Assembly (NCBI RefSeq): GCF_905475395.1
Contig: NC_058339.1
Coordinates: 39,875,172-39,939,171, forward strand
Reading direction: 5' to 3'
Source: Chrysoperla carnea
Taxonomy: Eukaryota; Arthropoda; Insecta; Neuroptera; Chrysopidae
DNA length: 64,000 bases
Positions 3,781 to 64,000 of this stretch are shown piece after piece. The stretch's first letter is position 1, and the number at the start of each line of letters is the position of its first letter. The notes under the pieces are model-generated. The model saw nothing but the letters and a program-made list of their open reading frames with translations. It had not been told where the DNA came from and ran no database searches. The position numbers and the translations under genes are program-made.

Positions 3781-3981
3781 AATTTTGGATCCCAGTTACG
3801 CAGATTAGCTCCCGTACTCCTCCTAAACAGATGGACCGATTTTGATGATACTTTGTGTGTGTGTTCAAGTGGATCCGATGGTGGTTTCGAATTACTATCC
3901 GGACCACTACAACCTTTTTTGAGGGTTACGCACCAAAAAAACTGAAATTCCTTAAATGGTGGGAGCGCATATAAATTATAT
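3781..3981 (+). repeat. Dispersed repeat family B, left part (split by the DIRS insertion)
   Basis: The text around 3832-3862 (GACCGATTTTGATGATACTT followed by a TG run), the 'gagggttacgcaccaaaaaaactgaaat' type stretch and the closing GGGAGCGCATATAAATTATA match, in order, the repeat at 39325-39690. The matching right part follows the DIRS element at 9110-9245. The family is unnamed here and non-coding. Confidence 0.6.
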
Positions 3982-4124
3982 ATTATACTGCAATTTTCGC
4001 CTCATGATTACATGAGTAGTGACATCTCTTGTTGCTACTTATAACCACGTTTTTTAGAGTTCAAGTTTTGAACTTGGCGCCTTCCTTAGAGGTAGCGGCC
4101 TTTTACTGTAACTATCTTCATAAC
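3982..4124 (+). repeat. DIRS left inverted terminal repeat
   Basis: From ATGATTACATGAGTAGTGAC to CTATCTTCATAAC this stretch is the near-exact reverse complement of 8918-9040. The outermost about 25 bases (ATTATACTGCAATTTTCGCC) are shorter than, and partly different from, the right end, as expected when the two DIRS ends are non-identical outside the shared repeat. Confidence 0.92.
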
Positions 4125-4619
4125 ATTTTTTCGTGCGAACATAACACACGTGTTGAATGTTACTGTGATAAATTTATAATTTAAAATTTTTTATATTAAC
4201 TGTGGATAGTAAAATAACCGTGTATTTATATATTACTTATATATAAAAATGGGTGGTCACAAGAGAAAACACTCCGACCACGGTAAATATGAAAAATGGG
4301 AAAAACAACTTCGAAGAATGAAACGCAAATTGAAAAATACAACAAACAGAGGGATAGTGTCAGTGCCGATAAAGAAAATTTAGAAGAAACAACTCCTCTG
4401 AATCGCTCAATAGATCATGGCAAGTGCATATTGGAATTATCTATTATTTAATTAAAAATATTGCATGTTATAAGTGATGCGTAAAATAAACAATATTAAA
4501 TAATTTTGAGATCCAGTCGAAAAATAATAAATTTAGTTTATTTATATAATATATTCAATCATAATATATTTTATTAAATTATTTTACGTATGTCATGCAT
4601 TTCCAAGAAGAAATATGAA

Positions 4620-4734
4620 ATTATAGACGTATTAAATATTTAATCATAGATATACAAAATATTTAGTCATAGACATATGAAATATATAACTATAGACGTT
4701 CAAAATATTTTACCATAGATTTACAAAATCATTT
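4620..4734 (+). repeat. 23-bp tandem repeat, five degenerate copies
   Basis: Five consecutive 23-bp units start at 4620, 4643, 4666, 4689 and 4712, each of the type A-(T/C)-(T/C)-ATAGA-(C/T)-...-AAATATTTA. The last unit overlaps the beginning of the first 201-bp unit (4726). All three frames contain stops, so the block is not an extension of gag. Confidence 0.85.
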
Positions 4735-5328
4735 AATTTAAATTAGTAACACCTGATTCTGATATGTCGCCATTATGTATAAAACTGTCAATAAATAAAC
4801 AATACCGTTGAGGTTATGCGAGACATAACACAATACGGAAATACACACGGCTGAGCTTATACGAGAGATAAGACATAGCCGAAGACATATGGTTGAACTT
4901 ACACGAGAGGTAAGGCATAACCAAATAAATCATTTAATTTAAATTAGTAACATCAGATTCTGATATGTCGCCATTATGTATAAAACTGTCAATAAATAAA
5001 CAATACCGTTGAGGTTATGCGAGACATAGCACAATACGGAAATACACACGGCTGAGCTTATACGAGAGATAAGACATAGCCGAAGACATATGGTTGAACT
5101 TACACGAGAGGTAAGGCATAACCAAATAAATCATTTAATTTAAATTAGTAACATCAGATTCTGATATGTCACCATTATGTATAAAACTGTCAATAAATAA
5201 ACAATACCGTTGAGGTTATGCGAGACATAACACAATACGGAAATACACACGGCTGAGCTTATACGAGAGATAAGACATAGCCGAAGACATATGGTTGAAC
5301 TTACACGAGAGGTAAGGCATAACCAAAT
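4726..5328 (+). repeat. 201-bp tandem repeat, three near-identical units, each with three stem-loops
   Basis: Units span 4726-4926, 4927-5127 and 5128-5328. They differ from each other at only a few positions, such as ACACCTGATT against ACATCAGATT, CATAACAC against CATAGCAC, and GTCGCC against GTCACC. Every unit contains three imperfect palindromes spaced by 10 nt; in unit 1 these are 4805-4838, 4849-4880 and 4891-4922. Each has a 4-bp outer stem, an internal loop of 3-5 nt per side, an inner stem of 5-6 bp and a loop with the core CGAGA. Stems differ between the three hairpins but pairing is kept: GGCT/AGCC, GGTT/AACC and CCGT/ACGG outside; CTTAT/ATAAG, CTTAC/GTAAG and GTTATG/CATAAC inside. 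All plus-strand frames are closed. The block may be an insertion, a satellite seed, or a cis-element of the retrotransposon. Confidence 0.92.
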
Positions 5329-5838
5329 AAATTATTTTCTTCTCTTCTCACAAAGATGGTACAAGGCCAGACAGACGACATATTAGAAATCGTAGATCGA
5401 GAATCTAATCAAGAGGCATTGTCGACAAATAACGAATTAGACAGAGAAATATTAAAAATTATCGGGGAAACACCGTCAGCAGAACCGCAAGAATTAAAGT
5501 TATCCTAGCATATTTCAACTCGGTAGAAAGCCTGGTTGAAAACAGGACGAACAAAAGAGATAAAAGAATTTCTTCTCCAAAAATACCCAAAATTAAACCC
5601 AGAATTATTCGCCTCACTCAATGATGGCTCCCTAAAAAGGGACAAATATTTTTCATACACTAAAAATTTAGCTTTCTCCGTATTATCAGAATTAAGTCTT
5701 GTTATAGAACCTCCTTTGAAAAAGAATAAAGAGGAAATTGGTTTTAAAATAATGCTATTACAATTGTGGGATACATCACAAATTTTAATTGACTTGTATC
5801 GGGGACAAACTGTAGCTAGAAAAGCTTGTATTCCTTGA

Positions 5839-6640
5839 GTCCAAAATCACGAAATCAAGACAATTCAAGCCAACAAGAATTCGTCGACACTAACTGAGGA
5901 ATCTGAGGTAAAAATCGCAGGGAGATTAAGCTCGTTCCTCAATAGATGGGCTACAATAACATCAGACCCTTTTATATTGCAATGCGTTAAGGGCTATAAA
6001 ATACCTTTTATAACGAAACCATATTATCGGAACCATCACCGGAGCGTAAATGGACAAAACCTGAAACTCTTGCATTAAAGTTAGAGATTCAAAGATTATT
6101 AAATCTAGGTGCACAGTTGAGGATCAATTTATTTCACCCTTCTTTATAGTTCCAAAATCTGATGGATTCAACAAGTTTATACTAAACCTTAAAAATATCA
6201 ATCAATACATTGCTATAGACCATTTTAAAACCGTCTGTAGGTTAATAGCACCAAGAATTTGTATGGGAACTATTGATCTTAAGGACGCCTATTTTTTGAT
6301 TCAGGGCATAAGTCATGTAGAAAATATTTATGGGTGTGGATTATGAATTTGAGTGCTTAGCGTTTGGCATTGCCAACGCGCCCTTTGTATTTACCAAAAT
6401 GTTAAAACCAGTTATTAATATTCTTAGAGAGAAAGGGTTTTTATCCGTAGTATATCTTGATGATTTCCTCTGCGTAGCCTTATATGACAATTCTTGCATA
6501 AAGAATTTAAGAGCAATGACAGAATTACTAACTTCTCTTGGGTTCATTATCAATTGGGATAAAAGTAATTTAAAACCTAGCACATGATTGATTTGGGGTT
6601 CTATATTGACACAGAAAAATTCTGTTTGGAGCTAACTGAT
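5839..6640 (+). pseudogene. DIRS reverse transcriptase domain remnant
   Basis: The frame after the gag TGA reads ...IAGRLSSFLNRW...GYKIPF (about 5918-6010), an N-terminal RT feature of DIRS elements. After frameshifts near 6010 and 6120 come SPFFIVPKSDGFNKF (about 6135-6180), MGTIDLKDAYF with the first catalytic aspartate (about 6262-6295), ECLAFGIANAP (about 6351-6385) and the YLDD active-site box at 6453-6464. GFIINWDKSNLKPS follows before a stop at 6585-6587. The domain would copy element RNA into DNA. At least three frame breaks and stops separate these blocks, so it cannot be translated as one protein. The order of motifs and the downstream RNase H and tyrosine recombinase exclude a Ty3/Gypsy element. 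Confidence 0.88.
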
Positions 6641-6749
6641 AAAAAACGAGAGCTTATCTTAAACCAAATAAATACCTTGATGACGAAATGATCTTGTAAA
6701 ATAATATTATTTGCTCAAATAATCGGTTCATTAATAGCTGCATGTCCAA

Positions 6750-7545
6750 CAGTTGAATACTGTATTTTGCATTGTAAGTTATTAGAAAAAGCTAAAACAG
6801 AAGCTCTTGCGCATAACAAAGAAGATTTCGATAAAAGTATGAAGCTACCAAATTATATCTTAGATGATTTAAGATGGTGGAAGGAAAATAAACCCAAAAC
6901 GTCACGAAAGATTAGAATGGCTATTTATAAAAAAGAAATTTTCTCAGACGCTTCGCTAACCGGATGGGGAGCATATTGTGATGGCAAGCAAGCTCATGGT
7001 TGGTGGAAATCAGAAGAAAAAGTGTTACATATTAATAACCTGGAACTTCGAGCTACCTTCCTAGCATTAAAATGTCTCGCAGCTGATCTCTTCCATTGCG
7101 AAATTTTGATCAGAGTTGATAATTCAACAGCAAAAGCATATATAAATAAAATGGGTGGATCACAATACCTAAACTTACACTTACTTGCCAAAGAAATTTA
7201 GGAGTGGTGCGAAGAGCGCAAAATTTGGCTTTATGCCTCTTATACTGCATCAAAAGACAATAAAGAAGCAGATAAACAATCTCGCATAAAAAATATAGAC
7301 ATGGAATGGAGTTTGGCAGATTACTCATGTAAACAAATCATAAAACAATTAGAACAAATCATATTTCAATTGATTTATTTGCGTCACGAGTAAACTCTAA
7401 ATGTAAAAAATATTGCGCCTTCAAGCGTGATCCAGATGCTATTGCTATAGATGTTTTTACAATTAACTGGGAAAGTCATTATTTTTATGCCTTTCAACTT
7501 TTTGCCTTAATAACACGAGTACTTCAAAAATAATCAACGACAAGG
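6750..7545 (+). pseudogene. DIRS RNase H and connecting domain remnant
   Basis: An open stretch (6767-7198) contains FSDASLTGWGAYCDG with the first acidic residue, HINNLELRATFLAL with the glutamate, and IRVDNSTAKAYINKMGG with the second aspartate. TAG at 7199-7201 stands where a tryptophan codon is expected (KEI-stop-EWCEERKIW). The same frame continues through ASYTASKDNKEADKQSR, which carries the last aspartate of the domain. Another frame then reads IDLFASRVNSKCKKYCAF and IDVFTINWESHYFYAF (about 7365-7500), the spacer typical between RNase H and recombinase in DIRS elements. RNase H removes the RNA strand during cDNA synthesis. No adenine methyltransferase motif was recognised, but decay prevents excluding one. 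Confidence 0.85.
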
Positions 7546-7639
7546 CTTCAAGTGTTATTGTAATATTCAAACCTAATAAATATCTTTTAACGTCTCCGCT
7601 TAGCAATCATCACCATCATCCAATGGTCCAAACACTTAT

Positions 7640-8591
7640 CCTGGCGGCCGCCAGGTTATCAGGGAAGAGAACCAGTAATAGATATTTTAACAGCGTCCCT
7701 AGCGGACTCAACATTAAAGCAATGCAATAGCGCATTAAAAAATTGGTGGATATTTTCTATAGGAAACGGACGTGATTCTTTCAATATTGATCCAAACGCA
7801 GTTCTGGAATTTTTATCACAAAAATTTAAAAATGGTGCAACATATGGGACGCTGAACACTGCAAGATCTGTTTTTTCGATAATATCAACAAAAATATTGT
7901 TTATGATCCATACATTTAGCGTTTTTTCAAAGGAATTTTCAAACTTAGACCCATAAAGCCAAAATATGATTCAACCTGGGACACAGAACCAGTTCTAAGT
8001 AAAACAGCCAATTTGTACCCGTTAACCCAATTATCTTTACAGCAATTAACGGTAAAATTGATAATCCTGCTGGCTTTAGGAACAGGACATAGAATGCAAA
8101 CCTTTGCCTTAATCTCAATAGACAATATCCCACAATACGAAGACAGCGTTCGAATAAAATTCCAGCTATCATAAAAACTTCTAGACCAGGAGCTTTGCAA
8201 CCGATTTTACATATCCCGTTCTTCGCGGATAAACCAGAACTCTGCGTGGCGAGCACGCTACTCAGATCCCTTGTCACAAAATCTTTAAGAGCCGATGAAA
8301 AAAGACTATTAATATCTATTCGCTACACAATGCTGGTTCATTTCTAACATTAAGTCGTTGCATAAAGGCTTATTTAACAGAGTGTGGAGTACATGAAAAA
8401 TTGTATGCCAATAGTAAGCGACATGCATCCACATCAAAAGCAGAAATCTAGATCTCATACGAAAAACAGCAGGATAATCCGAGAGATCGCAGGAGTTTGC
8501 CAGATTTTACGAAATACCAATAACAAGTCGATTTAATGACTTTGCGGAAGCAGTTCTTCTTAACTCTTCCAATGAAAACATATCGAAATAG
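7640..8591 (+). pseudogene. DIRS tyrosine recombinase (YR) remnant
   Basis: The N-terminal core-binding region reads REPVIDILTASLADSTLKQ and a following NSALKNWW block (about 7663-7745) up to about 7910. A frame change near 7915 leads to YPLTQLSLQQL and LGTGHRMQTFAL, whose arginine (codon 8092-8094) is the expected catalytic Arg I of the family. Later frames give SRPGALQPILHIPFF (about 8180-8225), SKRHASTSKAE (about 8415-8447) with the histidine and arginine of the second catalytic group, and EFARFYEIPITSRF with the nucleophile tyrosine codon at 8508-8510. The frame ends with TAG at 8589-8591. Such enzymes join the circular DNA intermediate to the target through a 3'-phosphotyrosine bond. Stops and at least three frameshifts inactivate this copy. 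The GC-rich palindrome CTGGCGGCCGCCAG lies at its start (7641-7654). Confidence 0.88.
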
Positions 8592-8643
8592 TCACTTATT
8601 TAATAATTATGACTATTAACAGATTGACAATTAGAGTAAATTG

Positions 8644-8645
<2 letters not shown>

Positions 8646-8698
<53 letters not shown>
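8646..8698 (+). repeat. 53-base A homopolymer inside the DIRS element
   Basis: An uninterrupted run of A lies between the recombinase stop (8591) and the internal complementary region (8722). DIRS elements do not normally carry a poly(A) tail here. It may be a homopolymer expansion, or poly(A) captured from an RNA intermediate. Long-read or PCR error could also alter its length. Confidence 0.95.
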
Positions 8699-8701
<3 letters not shown>

Positions 8702-8721
8702 TTCTCAGGCTCTGAACATCT

Positions 8722-8830
8722 ACTCATGTAATCATGAGGCGAAAATTGCAGTATAATTAAACGATCAAACGAACTTACCTGTACGTGAAGTTCGATCGTA
8801 ATTATACGATATTTTCGCCGAAATGATTAC
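8722..8830 (-). repeat. DIRS internal complementary region (ICR)
   Basis: Its first part (8722-8756) is the reverse complement of the outer left end (about 3982-4016). The second part (about 8751-8830) is the reverse complement of the outer right end (about 9030-9109). The two halves overlap in TATAAT, the probable junction core. In DIRS elements this region acts as the template that joins both ends into a circle. It confirms the element's boundaries independently of the coding remnants. Confidence 0.92.
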
Positions 8831-8917
8831 AGTCCCACCCATACACTAAATCCCTAGGAAATTCTTAAAGAATATCCTTTCCCATAATTCTCTCGAACAA
8901 TTTTTTAGGCTTTGAAA

Positions 8918-9109
8918 GTTATGAAGATAGTTACAGTAAAAGGCCGCTACCTCTAAGGAAGGCGCCAAGTTCAAAACTTGAACTCTAAAAAACGTGGTTA
9001 TAAGTAGCAACAAGAGATGTCACTACTCATGTAATCATTTCGGCGAAAATATCGTATAATTACGATCGAACTTCACGTACAGGTAAGTTCGTTTGATCGT
9101 TTAATTATA
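8918..9109 (-). repeat. DIRS right inverted terminal repeat with extended outer end
   Basis: 8918-9040 is the reverse complement of the left repeat. It then continues about 70 bases further through ATCATTTCGGCGAAAATATC to GTTTGATCGTTTAATTATA. The extra outer part holds an imperfect palindrome with GATCGAACTT opposite AAGTTCGTTTGATC, a plausible recombinase-binding arrangement. The element ends near 9109, where the surrounding family B repeat resumes. Confidence 0.92.
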
Positions 9110-9245
9110 TTATATTACAAAATATTATGTACCATGTATTTTTGATTGAGGGATTATTTATTATTATTCAGATATCTGAAAATGAATTTATAACAGCTAT
9201 ATGCAAGCGCAATGAGCTTCACTGCTGAAGGCTCTGTCGAGGCCA
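9110..9245 (+). repeat. Dispersed repeat family B, right part
   Basis: GGATTATTTATTATTATTCAG, AGCTATATGCAAGCGCAATGAGC and CACTGCTGAAGGC match the second copy at 39590-39660 (ATTATTTATTATTATTCAG, AGCTATATGCGAGCGTAGTGACC, TACTGCCGAAGAC). With 3781-3981 it reconstitutes one family B element interrupted by the DIRS insertion. Confidence 0.65.
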
Positions 9246-38421: not shown

Positions 38422-39324
38422 AAAAATCTGGGAACTTTGGGTAAAAGTAGTATTTCATTAGGCTTTTAAGTCTTTGTACAAAAAAAATGTACTTTTTTGT
38501 CTTTTTTGATAGCAATGCTATGCAAATAAAGATGAGAAAATTACCAATTTGTTTCAACAATAAAATATATCGATTGATTAAATGTAGATATTTATAAAAG
38601 AAAAAAAAAAAGAAAAGAAAAACCAGCAGAACTAAACTTAAAGATAGAAAATTGTTTTTCAAATACATAAACATAGCGTAGACGTATTTATAAATGACAT
38701 ACACAAAAGACTTTTCAGAAAAACAAACCACATAACTAGACGGCGGAACTGGTAAATGTGTGTAAGAAAGCTTTAAAAGAAATCAATTTTACCGATCAAC
38801 ACAATACAAACAATACTAACAAGAAAGAAAAACCTTTTACACTGCTCTACAATCATATACTTATTATTACAATATACGTACATGAATGTAATACGTTTGT
38901 ATGACAAGAATAGAAGTACTACATGTATGTGGAAACTATCAACCATCTTTATCTTTAATGTTCCATGTATATTCAATTCAATCTCATGTTCAAAATAATG
39001 TTGGTTGTACATTGTATATAAGTGAGTATAACCTCAAATTTGCAACAGAAAACCAAACTAGTCAAGTCCTAGTAGTCCTTACCATGTCATCAAAAAGTGT
39101 GTAAATTTGATTTCTAGCCACAGCCACGTATTAAATAGATACTAAAATTTTGGAAACGACTTTTGGAAAATTATATCCGCCATTGAAAAATGTCAACGAG
39201 AACTTCTTTTGCAATATTTGGTTTGGAAAAAGTATATTAGGAAGTGAAAACTTCTTTTGGCACTTTGAGCACGTTTGAGAGAACAAAAATCATGGAACAC
39301 GCGTCATTGATGTTTACAATTATC
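38422..39324. other. AT-rich intergenic DNA, nothing recognised
   Basis: There is a purine-rich A/G tract near 38599-38622. No supported gene. Confidence 0.5.
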
Positions 39325-39690
39325 CTAATCGAATGGTATGATTTTGATGAACTTTGTGTGTGTGTGTGTGTTAAAGAGGATGCGAGGATAGTTTTGATTT
39401 GCAATTGGGCCTAGTACAAAATGTTTTAGAGGGCTTCGAACCAAAAAATTAAAACCCATGAAATAAATCTTGGAAACACATACAAATATTATATTATACT
39501 ACATCTTAGAATTCAAATGTATTTATTTGCGCTCCCACCATATTTATCTAAAATTATGAACAGCTATTTGAATAGTATTGAGGTATTATTTATTATTATT
39601 CAGAGCTATATGCGAGCGTAGTGACCTCTACTGCCGAAGACACCAGTCAGGCTGAAGGCCGGGGCAAAGATGTCGACAGTCCCCACGACT
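39325..39690 (+). repeat. Dispersed repeat family B, uninterrupted copy
   Basis: It contains ATGATTTTGATGAACTTTG with a following TG run, AGAGGGCTTCGAACCAAAAAA, GCGCTCCCACCATATTTATC, ATTATTTATTATTATTCAG, and AGCTATATGCGAGCG through CCGAAGACACCAGTCAGGC. The same blocks flank the DIRS element. There is no coding frame. Confidence 0.65.
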
Positions 39691-54066: not shown

Positions 54067-55994
54067 TCATTCTGTTTTATCTTTTAATTTTTTTAAAGAT
54101 GCTATTCTTAATATAAATTTAACTACAAAAATCAATACTGTAATTGATAGAATAACAATTCCGGCAATAAATCCAAGTATATCCAATAAATAAAACTTAT
54201 ACCACGATAAATCAGCTGCCGGAGACCGTAAATGTTGAGCACCTTTATGTCTAATTACGTATTCAATCCACCAAATAGCACGATCCAGTGGTTTGGTTAT
54301 TTGATCTCCATATATTTCCGATAATTTTGTTATATTCTTTTTATAATTTGGATTTGTAATAACTTCCGTTAGAGTTTTAACCAATAAGTCAGTTGTTAAA
54401 CACTCTAAGTGTAGTTCTTTTCCAATTCCAAGATCTTGTGCCCTATGAATATTAAATTCTTGATCTGCGCCGAATGGAATTCCTATAATGGGAACTTTAC
54501 TGTTGATAGCTTCTTCCAATGAATGTAGACCTCCGTGAGTTACAAACGCTTTCAAATTTGGATGATCTGAAAATAATGATAAAGTTTATCAAAATCGTTC
54601 AAATATTATTTCGATGGCGTGGGTGCATTTTAGGAACTCATTTCAATAAGGATACAAATTTTAGAGGTTTTGTACATGTCGTGAATAACACCTTTTTTTG
54701 CTTTGACAATTCTGATAGGCAAGGCATCATCTTTCTGGAATAAAAATCACTATTTCTACTCTGAGGATACAAAATTTGCCATATAGACTTTAATAACAGA
54801 TCTTCAGATTTATGTGTTAATGAGTTGCCAAAATGTACCTTGTACCACTATTGTCTTTGATTTGAACTCACTTAAAAGATCTGGTTGGGGTAACCATTTT
54901 TTTAGTAACACATTTTTGGGTTTTCCAGGTAAAGATTCGGTTTCCCATTTCCATATAATGTTGTAAGGTAGTAGTTTGAAAGCATTTAACATATTTTCCC
55001 TGACATTGCTTGGTAAATTGGCACTTTTAAGATTGGAACCTAAACTAATATATATAACACCATTTTTAGAACTATCCAAGTATTCTTTTAGATCCTAAAA
55101 ATAAAAAATTGGTTATTTAATATCAACTGTTTGGGTGTTTTTTAAATTCATTACCTGTGGAAGTGGCTTTCGTTCTCGATCATATACACCACCTATTTGA
55201 ATAAAATTTGGAACGATTGGCCTGGGAATATTAAACACTGGATTTGAATTTGTTAATATTAAGTCCATAGATTTTTCTAATTCCCAAGCATCTTTTGTCT
55301 TTATATTAAAATGTTTTGCCATTAATTTATTCGCCAGCGGAAGAAAGTCCCAGAAATAATACATGTTAAAGTCAATATGATGCCATAAAAGATGCAGTCT
55401 TTCCCAAATATTCAAATTTGGACCGCCTATTACATTGACACCTGCATAATAGTTAGGATGAGGGGGCATTCCAATTGCATACTGCCCATTCAAAGTTTGA
55501 TCTATTGACGTAAGAGCAATTACAGGACAGTTGAAATGTTCTTTAAATGCCAGGAAATGTGCATTAAACATGAACATTTCATTTATGAATACATCGAAAT
55601 GTTCTTTCGGGTTTACAATAAGCTCTTTTACTTTCGGAGAATTTAAAACATTGTCAGATAGTTCGATGAAATTTGGTAAAAAATTTCGTATTGTATTAAC
55701 AGGACCAGGTTTACGTTTTTTTCCATCTTCTAAAAACTTAGAAACGTCAAAAGCACCGTAGGTTTCATTATGAATATCAATCTCAGTTAAGGTTTTTAAA
55801 GTTTTATCATTTATAGGATCTGAAGTAATTGAAACGACTTCATGTCCACGTTTCGACAGTTCTTTAATGATGGGTCGATAAAATAAATGATGACTTAACG
55901 ATGGTGCCGGACACAAAATTAATATTCTCGCACTAAAACATATTTGCACAAAACACAACAATAAAGCTAACAATACTTTTATGTTAAAAAACAT
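54067..55994 (-). CDS. UDP-glycosyltransferase (UGT1), three exons
   Basis: This membrane enzyme of the endoplasmic reticulum would transfer sugar from a UDP-sugar to small lipophilic acceptors (detoxification, pigment or hormone conjugation); the acceptor is unknown. Exons are 55155-55994 (840 bp), 54872-55094 (223 bp) and 54067-54566 (500 bp). All junctions are GT-AG, with intron phases 0 and 1 and intron lengths 60 and 305 bp. They encode 520 residues, normal for the family. ATG at 55994 has AAA before it. Residues 1-22 form a signal peptide. His35 in PSLSHH is the expected catalytic base. HNET is a likely glycosylation site. The donor-binding signature runs from WLPQPDLL through FVTHGG (364-367 THGG) to PFGADQ (Asp389-Gln390). 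One membrane helix lies near 482-505, followed by a basic tail ending KDKTE, a KxKxx-type ER retention signal. No frameshift or stop is seen. Its neighbour is its divergent paralogue UGT2. Confidence 0.95.
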
Positions 55995-56029
55995 TTTGAA
56001 TAAATTTTCGTCAACACAATACTAAATAT

Positions 56030-56064
56030 TTTTACATTTGTGTGAATTTTCAGTTGTTTATATA
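56030..56064 (-). promoter_or_regulatory. Candidate UGT1 core promoter with TATA box
   Basis: TATATAAAC on the minus strand (56056-56064) lies about 61 bases before the UGT1 start codon, a suitable distance for a TATA box with a short leader. Within the presumed leader or just at its start is ATGTAA (minus strand, 56032-56037), a minimal start-stop uORF if transcribed. TATA-like strings are frequent in this AT-rich DNA, so the evidence is weak. Confidence 0.3.
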
Positions 56065-58554
56065 CATACTGAGATATTTTCTTAAACAAATTACAAAAAA
56101 ATACATGTGTTGATAGAAATTTTTTTACTGATAATCTAAAAATAATTTAGTTTATTATATTCAATATTGATTATTTATTTTCATATACATAATAAATACT
56201 AAAATGTTTTAGAAATTTGAATAATTATTAAGGACACAATTAATATTGAATGGGATATTTTCCTGAGCAAAAAATTGAAAATGTATAAAAATATTGTAAT
56301 GAGTGTTTTATTGTAGGCGGCCTTGGATCAGTTTAGAAAATAATGAAATAGACCTTTTCATCGATTTTCTTTTGTTTCGGACAGTTGTCAAAAAATTATT
56401 TAACCTTAGAAAGCAAAATATATTTTGTCTCTTTCAAGCAGTGCTTTTTGACAAGGATAGAAGATATAAGATATGTCATTACTTGATTGGAAACAGTCCG
56501 AAACAAAAAAGAATCATTTTTTAAATGAAAAGCCCTATTACGTCTGTCATCTAAGGTAGCTGTGGAAATAATAAATATAGAACGTGGTATACATGAAAAC
56601 GGCGTGTATGCACGAGCGAAAGTTTGGGTTTGGTGGAAAAATAACAGTCAGCGGATATGGAGAGTTCAATATGGACAGTTGATACGAATAGTACAGCACG
56701 TAGAGTCGTTACGAGTGTTTGGATACAGAACTATTACATTATATTTAAAGTGAATACATTTTTCAAATCAAAAATTGTAAAATAAATGTAAATGAGCATT
56801 TGTTAATCAGGATTATACATCAAAGCTTCAAAGAACTCACCCAGTGATGTTTTTATACTATAAAATCTTCGGAAAGGTGCATTTTTATTAAACAGGAATG
56901 TATATCAAAATTTCAAAGATATCACCCTATATTACATATAGATGTCAGGAAATTATATATTTTTCTAATGTACTTCCAAAAATCCAATATAGCCAGATGT
57001 ATTCTAGCCCATTATAAAACAAGTTCCAATTTCACAATTAAATGCAGTATATGGGTAAGGAAAAGATAATGAATGTAAGGATTAAATTGGTTATGGATTC
57101 AAAGCCTGCAGAAAATTAAAAATCGTGTCACTGGCGGTAATAGGAGCGTTATATTTTCAGGCTGTTCAAAGTACACAATAGGTTTTTTCCGGATTCAAAG
57201 GTATCTAGCATGTGTGGTTACAATTCTGTAAGTACGGTTATCTAGTACGTGTAGCTAGAAGCCAGCGATTTTTTAAATGCATGCGTAATGATATGTATGA
57301 TATGATAACACTTTTTGTCATTTTTTTTACAATAATTACAATTTGAAATTATATTATTAATTCTTCAATTAGCTACTTTATTCTTGACGTATTGCCGCTA
57401 AAAATTAAAATTTTCCCAATTATATGTTAATTTTTAAAAAGGGACGCATTTTAAAGAATTATCCAAAATGCCAAATGCCAAAAATAATTGTGTAATGATA
57501 ACTATCGTGAAGATCATTGCAGAAAACTTTTGAAGTACGCTGACAGTATATAAAATTTTTAAAATTTATCTTAAAAAAAATAATTTAAACTTCAAACTTT
57601 TTTATCTTGAATAATATACAACATTTAAGTGCTATTTATATTAACTATTTACAAGGTGTTAAGAGTTTCTCACTCAATTATTAATTATTAAAATGCTTTA
57701 TAATTGCTAATAGTTTATTTTTGTGCATTACGTAATACCTCCAAAATTACATTTTATTGTGCAATTGGCTTTACTTCGGTAAAGGCATAGCAATTTTATA
57801 AATATATATTGCAATCCTTAAGCCTTTACTCCTCCTTATCTTTAAGCCAAATCATAATTCATTATTTTATACTTGTTTTACACGATTGTCAACAAGACTG
57901 TCGTTTTATAGTTTTGAATAAATTATTTTGCAGAATTCCAGAACCTCACTGCGTATGAATTCCTGGAATTACCCCTTCCTTTTTTGCATTAAAATCAGGA
58001 ATTTAATGTAATATGAAACAAGGTTCAATATTTACTTTTATGATTATTTTAATAACATTTTTAGGAAACATTGCATGAATTCCACATATAGCCCATTCCA
58101 CATATAGCCCATATTTTCTATCAAATTTGCACCTCCTTTCTACTTCAGATCCTATTGAAATATTTATGAAAAACAAGGACACTCTATGTACGGTATACTA
58201 TTTCTCTCAAAACAATTGAGTTAAATCAAACTTTTTTTACGTTTTATATTTTGGTTTGCAAGCTAGTTTTCACCCTTAAAGTACTTCATATTTTCTATAT
58301 AATCCCGGCTTATTGATCAAGAAATTGATAATGGCAAGACTTTATACGCACAAAAAACAAAATTATTTACTTTTTTGTAAAAATAATCTCAAATATACAA
58401 CCATTATCTTTTATATTGTTAAAAAATTGAAACATTTTTTTTGCTTTGTGCTTTGTTTTCTTTGTAATAATTCATAAACTCAGCCACAGTTGTCAATTTT
58501 ATACAAATTGGATCACGGTACCCAAGTCGATAAACTTATATTAAAACTAAAATT

Positions 58555-58607
58555 TAAAAAACAAACAAATGACTGAGTTAACTGTTGAAATACCCTGTAT
58601 GTCAGTG
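58555..58607 (-). repeat. Family A 3'-end fragment
   Basis: AAACAAATGACTGAGTTAAC, TGTTGAAATACCCTGTATG and TCAGTG match the distal end of A4 and A9 (AATTGACTGAGTTAATTGTTGAAATACCATA). Only about 50 bp are recognisable. Confidence 0.65.
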
Positions 58608-59060
58608 CACCGAAAAACGAAATATCTTTTTTTCATCTCTTTGTTTATTACTTTTGCAATTTTTATGTGCTGAAAAACTTCTGGCACATTTTTCTAGCCA
58701 TCATTCCGAATCCGACGAGTTATTACATGTATTTTTACGACTATTATTTCTAAATTTCACCAATTTGAACTTGTCGACTAGACTATGTATATCTCTTCTT
58801 AATATCCTCTCCAATAGTTACTTTAAGGTGTACTAAGAGACAATATTATCACAGACAAAGACAAAAGTACAAAGGGTTCATGCACAGAGCCAAGTATAGA
58901 ATCTAGAACGTTAGGAGTGTTAGGGAGATATTTCCTTCCGTGTAAAACCTAAAGACTAGAAATTTTTATAATGGTCTCGGGCACCAGCTAGTTTGTGATA
59001 AGTTTTGATAAAGAAATCATATTAATTTTTCATTAGTCATTGTACTCATGTCGATTGAAA

Positions 59061-61125
59061 ATGTTTGTTTTTACAAAATTGTGGATAGTTATTCTATGTT
59101 TTGTTCAAGTGACAATCAGTGCAAGAATCTTAATTTTATGTACAGCACCATCCATAAGCCATCATTTATTTTATCGCAAAATAATCAGGGAACTGTCGTT
59201 AAATGGACATGAAGTTGTTTCCATTACGCCAGATCCCATGAATGATGCAACTTTAACGAATTTAACAGAAATTGATATTCACAATGAAACTTATGGTGCT
59301 TTCAGTGCAAGGCAGATTTTGGAGGAGAGTAAAAGCGAACCAAAAAGTATCGTGAATATGTTTAGAAAATATTTACCAATAGCTGGCGTGGAATTATCTC
59401 ACAGAGTATTAAATTCATCAAAAGTAAAGGAATTAATTACAAATCCTAATGAACATTTCGATGTATTTATAAATGAATTGTTTATGACGAATGCTCATTT
59501 TTTCGCTTTTAAAGAACACTTTAACTGCCCAGCAATTGCAATTTCATCTGTTGATGCAGTACCAAACGTAAGGGACGCAATTGGTAATCCGCCACATCCA
59601 AATTATTACGGCAGTGTGTTGATTAAAGGTGGTTCAAAACTGACTTTTTGGGAACGCTTAGAACTACTATGGCTGAATGTTGACTTCAGAATGTATTATT
59701 TTTGGGATTACCTTCCAGAGGCAAATAAAATAATAAAAAAACATTTCAAAATCAAAACCAACGATGCTTGGGAACTAGAAAAGTCGGTTGATTTAGTATT
59801 AGCTAATGCAAATCCAATATTCAATATTCCTCAGCCTCTTGTTCCTAATTATATACAGATAGGTGGCTACTACGAACGTAAACACATACCACTTCCACAG
59901 GTAAATAATGCTTAAATATATTGCTTTAACTTGATTCTCACAGTTAACCGCTTTTTTAGGATTTAAAAGAATTTTTGGACAATTCTCCAAATGGTGTAGT
60001 GTATTTTAGTTTGGGATCTAATATACAAAGTGGAAATTTACCAAATAAAATTAAAAAAAGTATCTTAGAAGCATTTGACCAAATACCATATAATATCATA
60101 TGGAAATTCGATAAAGAAAACTTAGCTGATATATCATCAAATGTGTTGCTGAAAAAATGGTTACCACAGCCAGATTTGTTAGGTAATATTTTTTAATCGA
60201 GTCAAAACTGAATAATTCATTCCACTTACGGGTGAATGAATTAATAAATGACATCAAACTTAAAATCAATTTTTCACACCTGATGACGAGGGCAGCAAAA
60301 AAGGGCCATGCGAGGTGGTTGAGTCGATATTTTAATATTAGTCAAGGATATCCTTCAATCAGTCAACTTACTCTAAGATTTGATCTCACAGTCCAAATTA
60401 CCTTGTATTTAGAACTGGATTAAAATTACTTTGGGAAGGCTTAGACTTCTAATCTTCAGCTACCTACACGAAATTCATTATTTTGGAAAGCGTTTGGGAT
60501 TTATATTACCTTTTTAATTGGCGTTACGCAGCTATCTCGCTCAAACTTTTTATCCCAAACAGCCAAATCCCAATTGCATAGTTTTCTTCCGTAATAATTT
60601 TGATAATAATTATCACAATTTACAGATCATCCAAATGTAAAAGCGTTTATAACTCATGGTGGTATTCACTCAGTAGAAGAAGCCATTGATAGTGGTGTTC
60701 CAATTATTGGCGTTCCATTTGGTGCAGATCAAGATTTCAACATTTACAGAGTGGTAGATCTGGAAATTGGGAGAGAACTTCAATTAGAAGACATAACCAC
60801 TGAATCATTAGTTAAAGCAATTACGGATGTTGTAAACAATCCGAAGTATAAAAATAATATAAAGAAACTGTCAGAGCTGAATAGAGATCAAATAATTAAA
60901 CCTTTGGATCGTGCTATTTGGTGGATTGAATACGTAATCAGACATAAAGGTGCTAAACAATTACGCAGTCCAGCAGCTGATTTACCGTGGTATAAGTTTC
61001 TTTTATTAGATATTATTGGATTCGTTGTAGGAACTCTTGTTTTATCTACTATCGCATTTATTTATTTAATAAAAATAATTTTAAGGTTGCTTATTTTTAG
61101 AAACTTAAAAAATAAAACGGAATGA
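59061..61125 (+). CDS. UDP-glycosyltransferase (UGT2), three exons
   Basis: This is a paralogue of UGT1 with the same predicted role: UDP-sugar transfer in the ER lumen. Exons are 59061-59900 (840 bp), 59960-60182 (223 bp) and 60626-61125 (500 bp). Introns are 59 and 443 bp, GT-AG, phases 0 and 1, and the product is 520 residues. ATG 59061 is chosen because it is the first in-frame ATG (the upstream frame opens with TTG), has GAAA before it, and gives an exon 1 of exactly UGT1 length. A signal peptide covers residues 1-21. The SISHH motif has the catalytic His34, and HNET is kept. The donor signature runs WLPQPDLL ... FITHGG ... PFGADQ, with Asp389-Gln390. A C-terminal helix is followed by a tail ending KNKTE. 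One noticeable change is LEIGRE where UGT1 has LGIGKE, after the signature. About two thirds of residues match UGT1 by eye. Nothing is broken. AATAAA at 61540-61545 is a possible distal poly(A) signal. Confidence 0.95.
60183..60625 (+). other. UGT2 intron 2
   Basis: GTAATATTTT donor and TTTACAG acceptor. Intron 2 is longer than in UGT1 (443 against 305 bp) and unrelated in sequence by eye. It carries a small inverted pair, GTTTGGGA (about 60490) and TCCCAAAC (about 60552). Confidence 0.85.
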
Positions 61126-64000
61126 CATCATTTTAATGATATAGAATAGGATAGTATAGAATAGATTATATATTTATTGTATTTAAAGCCCAATGGCCTT
61201 CTACAATGGTCAGTAACAAGACAGAAAAAAAATTAGTAAAAGAAACATAAATACATATTACTTTTTTTTTTTTTTTACTTTAAACATGCATACGATATTT
61301 ATTTACATCATGGTTTCTCAGTGTAAACTAAATATTGACAAATATCTTGTCTAGTAATCTTAATTAAAAATTGAAAAAATACATACTTCTTATGTAACGA
61401 AAGCAACTAAATTATAAATATTACTCCTTAATTAGATAAGATCTTGTTTGAAGTATGTTCAGAATAAGATGGAAAATGTCATTCAGTTCAATATTAGATA
61501 TGTTCAACAAGAATACACAATAATTGTTTAACGCAATTCAATAAAATAACTGTTAATCATTTTAACTGATTGATTGATTTTTTATCCATTTCTATATACA
61601 AATTTTCAATACAACCGCCATCCCATCCTAAATAGTTCGAGTTTTCGATAGTGGTGTCTCTTATCAATTTTATTTATGCTTTTTTTTTCGCAAAAAGCAC
61701 AGTATTTCACAATAGAAAGAGAAAAAGATGGAGGGGATTCAACACCCCTAAAAGGTAGTTCCTGGACACTAATTTTTGTGTACAAATTTTAAACTATTTT
61801 ACTTAATTGGATGGCGTAGTATAAGTGCGCAAAATTTTAAAAACTGTGAAAGAGGTTTTTGTTTGGAAATTCATTCAAAATTGCATAAATTAACCTACTT
61901 TTTTTATAAAATTGCTTCCCGTTTTACAAAAACTACACACGCCGGCATTCAAGCTCAGTTAAACTAAATAAGACACTCGCTTGGTATTTTCAAATCGTCC
62001 CTTCAATCCTCTACTTACACCTTCCTGATAGTGCATAAACCATTATTTTTGGGGCGTATGATTCATTATACATAAAAGTATCAAATTAGAATTTTATCAA
62101 TAACCTTCTTTTATTCAATTATCTTTTGAAATAGATAAGAATTCTTATCTAATCTATGTGAACGCAGAACATGTTTCGAAGGATTAAATTTTTATAAAAT
62201 CTTAAAGTGGTTGGCATTGAATTTTTCATCTGTTTGTAAGCATTGCGTTCATAGGCGCACTAATTGAGGTTTAATCAAAATGAAATTATATAAATTACTG
62301 ATATGCTTTAGGCAATTGAAAGATGAAATTCCTAAATAACCAAAATTATAACGTAGGTTTTAACTCACGATATACATGTTTACTCTATAAATTACACTCT
62401 TTGAAATTAAGATAAAAGTGTTTTTCTCTAAACGAACTTATAGGTTTGAACTCCTACTAATAAATGATTAAATGTATTACTTACATTTTGATTGACGGCA
62501 CTCAATTAGTGTATTTTATATTGAAAAAGTGTTGGCCTATAGGGTGATCAAATTGGATTTATATATTATTAGTTTGAAATAAACGTAAAATGGTATGAGA
62601 TATCAATGTGAGTTCTTATTAATTTTATTACCGATGAAAGATTTTCCTTTTCTATTACCTTTCCTTTAGCTTCATTAAAACAGCTTCTAGGTATTTAAAG
62701 AAGGCCATTACTAAGTATTTTCTTTAAAATTCTTCATGAAATAAATTAAATCCGCTAACAGTCTCTTATGGTTTATTCAAACTAGCACATAAATAATTCT
62801 GAGGAATATCCTTGTAACAAATCCCTCCCATTTATTATGAGAGGGATTCATTCATTCATTTCATTAGGTAAAGGATGTTGCTTGTCCTTACCTCCGCTAA
62901 AACATAAAATTATAATTCCGCTAGAATATACTAAACAAATTTGAATAAAAGATTTGCATTCGAAATATATCCACAACTGATTTCAGAAAGAATTAGTCTT
63001 GAAAACCAACAGCAAACAAAATAATAATAGTTTCATATCTGAAGTTTCAACGGCAACAGTTTAAACGATAAAGTAAAAGAGAACGACTTGTATTTATATA
63101 AAACTGAAAAAACGTATCGAACAAACAGCTTTGAAATAAGTGAATTCTTATATTTATACACACATAGACCTTCTGTCAATCTTAATGAATACAGTAAAGG
63201 TATCGACAGATCAAGATGCACCCTCGTTAACTTTGTGGTTAACGGCCGGAAGTATTAACGCTATCAGCTACTAAATTACGTCACTTTATCGTTTTTCTTA
63301 TTTTATTTATGAGTTTAAAAACATTTTTTATATATTTTTATTATACCTATCTCTGCAACTACTATTGCACTGTAACCCTTTAAAATTGTTTATAAATAAA
63401 ATATTGATGGATAATTATATGGACGACTTTTAAAACGACATTTATTATAAAATCGTTTTAATTTAAGAATATATTTATCTTAAGGGTGCAGTTTTTTTTT
63501 TTATCTATAAAATTTAAAACAAAAACTGTTGATTGGTTTGTAATAAAACTAATTATTACCCTGCATCTGATCGTAAAAACTATGTATTATAGATACGGAA
63601 AGTAAGTTTATTAAATAATACGGATGTTTTCTGATTTGCTGCGTCGTTTTTAACAAGCTGGTTATATTATACGCCATAAAAGTGGTTGTTTTTTTACCTC
63701 AATGGATACGTGAATTGATCGTAATATCATGATAGACTTTGGTCTCTCATTTCCTAGCCTCTATATTGGAGGAGATTAAAAACTATTTCAATATTGACCA
63801 AATTCGTGAGTCGATTGCACGGATAATAATATTTGCAAAATTAATTTCTATGCACTTTTTCGGGGGTTTGCCACATGCCTATAAAATTAACACAATGTTG
63901 TATATCAAAGAAATATTTTCAATCTCTGAACCCCTTAAAAGAGGCTAAAAATTAAAAATACCTATCTATCTACCTACTTATAACTGTACAATAAATACCT
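61126..64000. other. AT-rich intergenic DNA downstream of UGT2
   Basis: No further gene is supported. GATAGAATAGGATAGTATAGAATAGA (61137-61163, ATAGAATAG-type repeats) follows the UGT2 stop. A T tract lies at 61262-61276. The open frame 63739-63948 has no recognised motif and no splice context. Confidence 0.5.

Follow-up and report, generated by a model that had tools for sequence, protein, structure and literature searches.

What is a tandem array of hairpins doing inside the gag gene of a retrotransposon: is it a signal that belongs to the element, or foreign DNA that landed there by chance? The question is raised by a locus within the 64,000-nt stretch of DNA analyzed here (hereafter the window), where three 201-bp units, each with three hairpins (H1, H2, and H3), lie between the start and the core of a broken gag gene. 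The features of this locus are as follows, with P0001-P0007 denoting the proteins related to the gag core:

3982..4124, plus strand: left ITR; its body (4004-4124) is the reverse complement of 8918-9038
4249..4440, plus strand: 5' part of gag (MGGHKRK...), from tblastn to P0001, P0002 and P0004 and from reading frames; holds a frame switch; right border approximate
4441..4725, no strand: AT-rich insert 5' of the array, with most of a 23-bp minisatellite; left border approximate
4726..4926, plus strand: 201-bp unit 1 (H1 4804-4839, H2 4847-4882, H3 4889-4924)
4927..5127, plus strand: 201-bp unit 2 (hairpins 5005-5040, 5048-5083, 5090-5125)
5128..5328, plus strand: 201-bp unit 3 (hairpins 5206-5241, 5249-5284, 5291-5326)
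5359..5835, plus strand: gag restart and core, similar to proteins of Neodiprion, Cotesia and Eretmocerus; two stops in frame
6000..7390, plus strand: reverse transcriptase / RNase H region, spread over several frames
7591..8588, plus strand: presumed tyrosine recombinase region, by position; broken into several frames
8720..8831, no strand: internal complementary regions (ICRs), 38/38 bases to the left end and 80/80 to the right end
8918..9109, minus strand: right ITR

The host element and its state

By its ITRs, its ICRs matching each end and a Pfam reverse transcriptase match (RVT_1 in 6321-6584, E 8.8e-11), the element (~3982-9109) is a DIRS1-like retrotransposon, which agrees with the DIRS setting originally predicted for the array. 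The ITR body is complementary at 121 of 121 bases, the outermost 22 bases differ between the two ITRs with each matching its own ICR, and the two arms, taken over 146 nt, reach 92% complementarity. The Pfam match to RNase_H (6692-7198) reaches only E 0.033, below its cut-off, and none of the four frame pieces tried from 7591-8448 gave a Pfam match; by position and motifs, 7591-8588 is presumed to encode the tyrosine recombinase. A run of 53 A (8646-8698) stands just before the ICRs. The element itself sits within another repeat, its flanks (3821-3992 and 9145-9172) resembling 39323-39604, where 39323-39503 is ~70% identical to the left flank and 39577-39604 is a 28-base match to the right one. 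DIRS1-like elements are not known to make a target-site duplication, and this second copy of the flanking repeat, which aligns to both flanks, is too divergent to fix the insertion junction. The same ITRs, ICRs (left and right), gag-like ORF and RT/RNase H are described for the DIRS1-like elements of Hymenoptera, which are reported to be abundant in wasps and ants (PMC3266345). The difference is that here an array splits gag, whereas the words "tandem" and "hairpin" occur 0 times in the main text of that paper.

The original prediction called this element decayed. Its genes are indeed broken, by five stops and, on a count by eye, at least nine frame switches (those of the pol region without intact relatives), yet the word misleads: over the 447 ITR/ICR bases compared, the repeat arms show 0 differences, with the arms delimited where identity stops. 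This bounds the divergence since insertion at ~0.7% or less (95% bound from the 447 identical bases). The stops and switches exceed what this time would predict: assuming an indel rate of 15% of substitutions and no gene conversion between arms, they have probabilities of ~0.013 and 0.009 at this bound, and of 0.05 and 0.08 at 1% divergence. Identical repeat arms despite broken genes point to a recent move of an already defective copy, which was thus probably inserted recently, already broken, and moved by proteins made elsewhere; gene conversion between the arms could by itself keep the ITRs identical.

Hairpin design and paired changes in the stems

TRF reports the block as one tandem array (4726-5337, period 201, 3.0 copies, 98% matches), and the three comparisons between its units give 3, 3, and 2 base differences, so that the claim of three near-identical 201-bp units splitting gag within a DIRS element stands. 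Elsewhere within the 64-kb window the unit has no convincing match. The array, originally given as the whole of the extra DNA in gag, is a part of it: ~285 AT-rich nt stand before the array (their left border was set by the reading frame and is approximate). They include most of a 23-bp minisatellite (4611-4737, 5.5 copies) that passes straight into the first 201-bp unit.

Each unit carries three hairpins of one design, as had been claimed: H1, H2, and H3 of unit 1 align over 36 columns without gaps and recur at +201 and +402, giving nine in total. A covariance model was built on H1, H2, H3, and the H1 variant of unit 2, the remaining five hairpins being identical copies. It recovered all nine from the 64-kb window (E 2.8e-12 to 2.3e-11) and found no further hairpin of this design, the other 7 of 16 rows lying at E 1.7 to 8.5. 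The details of the design differ from those first given. What was described as 12-bp arms around a 7-bp spacer consists of an outer stem of 4-5 bp, an internal loop, an inner stem of 5-6 bp and a CGAGA loop, and the supposed 10-nt spacers are gaps of 7 and 6 nt between the 36-mers (9 and 8 nt from outer pair to outer pair). An alternative drawing of the loop, open to H2 and H3, is a GAGA tetraloop with a C-G closing pair and one bulged A, a GNRA-like form. The complement between GCATAACC and GGTTATGC, proposed to let units pair with one another, is present; forcing this pairing between H1 and H3 costs ~5 kcal/mol relative to the local hairpins (-28.2 vs. -33.1), and we rejected it as the main fold.

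Folding of the 201-nt unit gives -40.1 kcal/mol (z -3.19), a stability reached by 0 of 200 shuffles. Single-hairpin stability is ordinary: with a threshold of -9.5 kcal/mol, the plus strand of the window has 86 clusters as stable or more so, and the array hairpins account for nine. The unusual feature is the common design together with the paired changes, not the stability of one hairpin. A preference for the plus strand, the sense of gag, follows from three observations: the energies of H2 and H3, a strand scan at the same threshold (9 of 9 array hairpins on plus vs. 5 of 9 on minus), and the sole between-unit base change within a hairpin (H1 of unit 2), which retains a U.G pair on the plus strand. 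H1 departs from this, being slightly more stable on the minus strand (-10.2 vs. -9.7). Rfam gave no match for 4200-9200 at E up to 5, nor for the window at gathering scores, on which we rejected a known RNA family and find less support for a known ribozyme.

That the stems differ and still pair was borne out across the three hairpin types: both sides have changed in 5 of 10 pairs, and among the remaining five only pair 6-31 is broken, in H1. As many double-changed pairs were reached by 6 of 500 shuffles. The covariation score was 0.617 against 0.283 (sd 0.079) in shuffles, none of 500 being as high, and six slid structures scored at most 0.229; this test has four rows, two of them H1 variants, hence three independent hairpin types only, and structure and test share the same sequences. 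With the fold of a single hairpin as reference, each of six overlapping comparisons held 3-4 double compensations (p 0.0006-0.003). The number of pairs kept (G.U counted as paired) was significant with the H1 fold as reference (p 0.03 and 0.01) and not with that of H2 or H3 (p 0.10-0.31), and standard pair types were no more frequent than in shuffles (331 of 500 as high). Under uniform mutation, 48 of 200000 simulations had no broken pair and none of these also had five double changes, a null that is too kind given that structure and consensus come from the same three sequences.

The 8 positions that differ between H2 and H3 form four partner pairs, comprising three Watson-Crick swaps and one swap of G.A for A.G in the internal loop (column 9/27), while the CGAGA loop and the internal-loop bases G7, A8, C28, and A29 are invariant across the three hairpin types. 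Changed stems around fixed loop bases are the pattern of a putatively folded and recognized RNA, and the matched stem changes suggest a working RNA signal, not stray satellite DNA. The competing account, which we consider possible but doubtful, is that gag was invaded by a palindromic satellite or minisatellite and the array spread by unequal exchange, with DNA templating (template switching within the quasi-palindrome) instead of selection keeping the arms complementary. The near-identical tandem units, the adjoining minisatellite and the AT-rich remainder of the unit, in which every frame is closed, all speak for it, and the Watson-Crick swaps could indeed be explained by such arm-copying. 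The kept mismatches could not: templating should repair them, yet G7.A29 and A8.C28 persist in all three hairpin types, and column 9/27 exchanges one mismatch for its mirror image.

The paired changes also bear on the idea that the hairpins form an array of sites for the tyrosine recombinase of the element or another DNA-binding protein. The inverted arms around a short asymmetric center fit such sites, and DIRS elements do encode a tyrosine recombinase (PMC3266345). A double-strand site should keep its arm sequence, however, whereas here the arms change, the pairing is kept and the loop is fixed, and the hairpin model found no match at ITRs or ICRs (E up to 10). We thus consider this proposed role less supported and very improbable.

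Gag relatives and the Cotesia match

A protein search with the gag core returned 7 relatives, five from named species (Neodiprion lecontei, N. virginianus, Cotesia congregata, C. typhae, and Eretmocerus hayati, all three genera Hymenoptera, judged on one species of each) and two from unnamed ones. We call the gene gag for its position in the element; these relatives carry the annotation uncharacterized or unknown, and Pfam has no match to P0002. The start of gag (4249) matches P0001, P0002, and P0004, while the proteins matched from 5359/5401 onward include P0001-P0004, so that the claim of a block dividing gag is right in outline. P0001, P0002, and P0004 begin with MGGHKRK like the window at 4249 and continue into the core without the block; P0005, P0006, and P0007 have different starts and no block peptide.

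The gag-like protein P0003 of C. congregata differs from all of these, as it opens with the peptide that hairpin 2 and its upstream neighbor would encode (14 of 19 residues identical), a match found in all three units. Compared singly, window 5030-5140 and P0003 align at E 2e-7, whereas tblastn of the whole protein against the 64-kb window gives the hairpin-peptide match E 0.003 only. The match scores 68, whereas 2000 dinucleotide shuffles reached at most 47 and the other six relatives 24-30; window 5030-5140 gave no alignment to P0004. From the end of the match to the gag restart there are 68 nt in the window (hairpin 3 included) and 7 residues in P0003, whose far end extends into a stretch aligning to the pol region (6590-6760). 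P0003 is a predicted protein, not DNA, whose first residues may be a gene-model artefact, and the peptide match says nothing on whether a hairpin would pair in Cotesia.

Common descent of the block within one DIRS lineage is the simplest reading of this match: a related sequence directly ahead of the gag core of a second species favors a module carried by the lineage over a chance satellite insertion. The original prediction held that sibling copies with a continuous gag and no block, together with a genome full of the unit as ordinary satellite without compensatory changes, would reduce the array to such an insertion. With relatives from other species standing in for siblings, the outcome is mixed: P0001, P0002, and P0004 lack the block and run on unbroken, as a satellite would have it, and the piece in P0003 opposes chance. 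A chance satellite origin is thus weakened, as far as comparison of these proteins can tell.

P0003 also shows that, in a predicted protein at least, the block sequence is readable as part of a gag-like protein, and the block could accordingly descend from a coding repeat of the Gag N-terminus (14 residues, like TAELIREIRxxRRH), the hairpins being a by-product of its codons. The spacing of H2 and H3, 42 nt apart and in the same frame, agrees with this. H1 does not, as it lies 43 nt from H2 and out of frame with it, and searches among proteins of ~170-540 and of 105-335 residues gave P0003 as the only one with the block peptide (1 candidate; 1 of 21 candidates). Further, 6 of the 8 changes between H2 and H3 alter a residue and 2 are silent, without sign of peptide selection, so the peptide is not what H2 and H3 conserve. 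Stops close all three forward frames in each unit, which rules out a translated repeat in the present copy, and we hold descent from a coding repeat to be unlikely.

Searches of other collections had little to add. A hairpin pattern had one 16-base match in viral contigs, whose neighborhood was by eye unlike the unit, and two further patterns had none; genome contigs had none either (these collections are prokaryotic or viral, with little bearing on insects). Gag relatives gave 262 and 160 pattern stretches in the viral and genome contigs (again prokaryotic or viral), none confirmed, and an RT/RNase H piece gave 7 stretches in viral contigs, none confirmed, and none in solved structures. No phage record matched 4400-5400.

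Candidate roles and known systems

Our preferred reading, a tentative one with a substantial chance of being right, sees in the block a plus-strand module of structured RNA that belongs to one hymenopteran DIRS lineage and is placed where the variable N-terminus of gag meets the conserved core. A 36-nt hairpin would have been duplicated at steps of 42-43 bp, its copies would have diverged under constraint on the fold and the loop bases, and the resulting three-hairpin unit of 201 bp would then have tripled. Of the roles first proposed, an RNA signal is supported as a possible one by the paired changes and fixed loop bases, and the hairpins would be candidate binding sites in the genomic RNA, for packaging by Gag, dimerization or control of gag translation. 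A copy living on borrowed proteins would depend on its cis signals, which makes multiplied hairpins of particular interest: several of them may favor the movement of a coding-dead element by the proteins of intact relatives. It is tempting to extend this to a copy that parasitizes such relatives through nine Gag-binding hairpins acting as a multiplied packaging or recruitment signal, a scenario that we regard as a long shot.

To our knowledge, no structured cis-acting RNA module is known for DIRS elements, and we know of essentially no account of how they recognize their own RNA; among the literature matches listed (titles and starts of abstracts), none described such a module. A compact hairpin with a fixed loop and swappable stems, adjoining gag and apparently common to a Cotesia element, therefore offers a concrete candidate signal. 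If true, the module would be the first of its kind described for DIRS elements, non-autonomous DIRS copies could profit from multiplying a cis signal, and hairpin copy number would be a weapon between element copies.

Several purine-rich-loop hairpins near the gag start are also a feature of retroviral packaging, a likeness that we draw as an analogy without claiming homology. The palindromic elements of Rickettsia are bacterial hairpin DNA able to sit in a coding frame, which is their likeness to the block; they are longer and dispersed, whereas the array hairpins are short, tandem and inside a retrotransposon. In the 5' domain of Ty1, hairpins in the 5' part of the retrotransposon RNA can serve dimerization and packaging, as tested in a system where a helper Ty1 mobilizes a mini-Ty1 and where compensatory changes that restored pairing rescued function (PMC5454406). 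Ty1 differs in being an LTR element with a pseudoknot and kissing hairpins and no tandem array (PMC5454406), and the CGAGA loops of the present array are not self-complementary.

Far from the element, two other features of the window deserve mention. UDP-glucuronosyltransferase genes or fragments lie on both strands at 54067-61125 (Pfam UDPGT in all three ORFs tested of four), and a very stable minus-strand hairpin is found at 62809-62859 (-19.3 kcal/mol in 36 nt).
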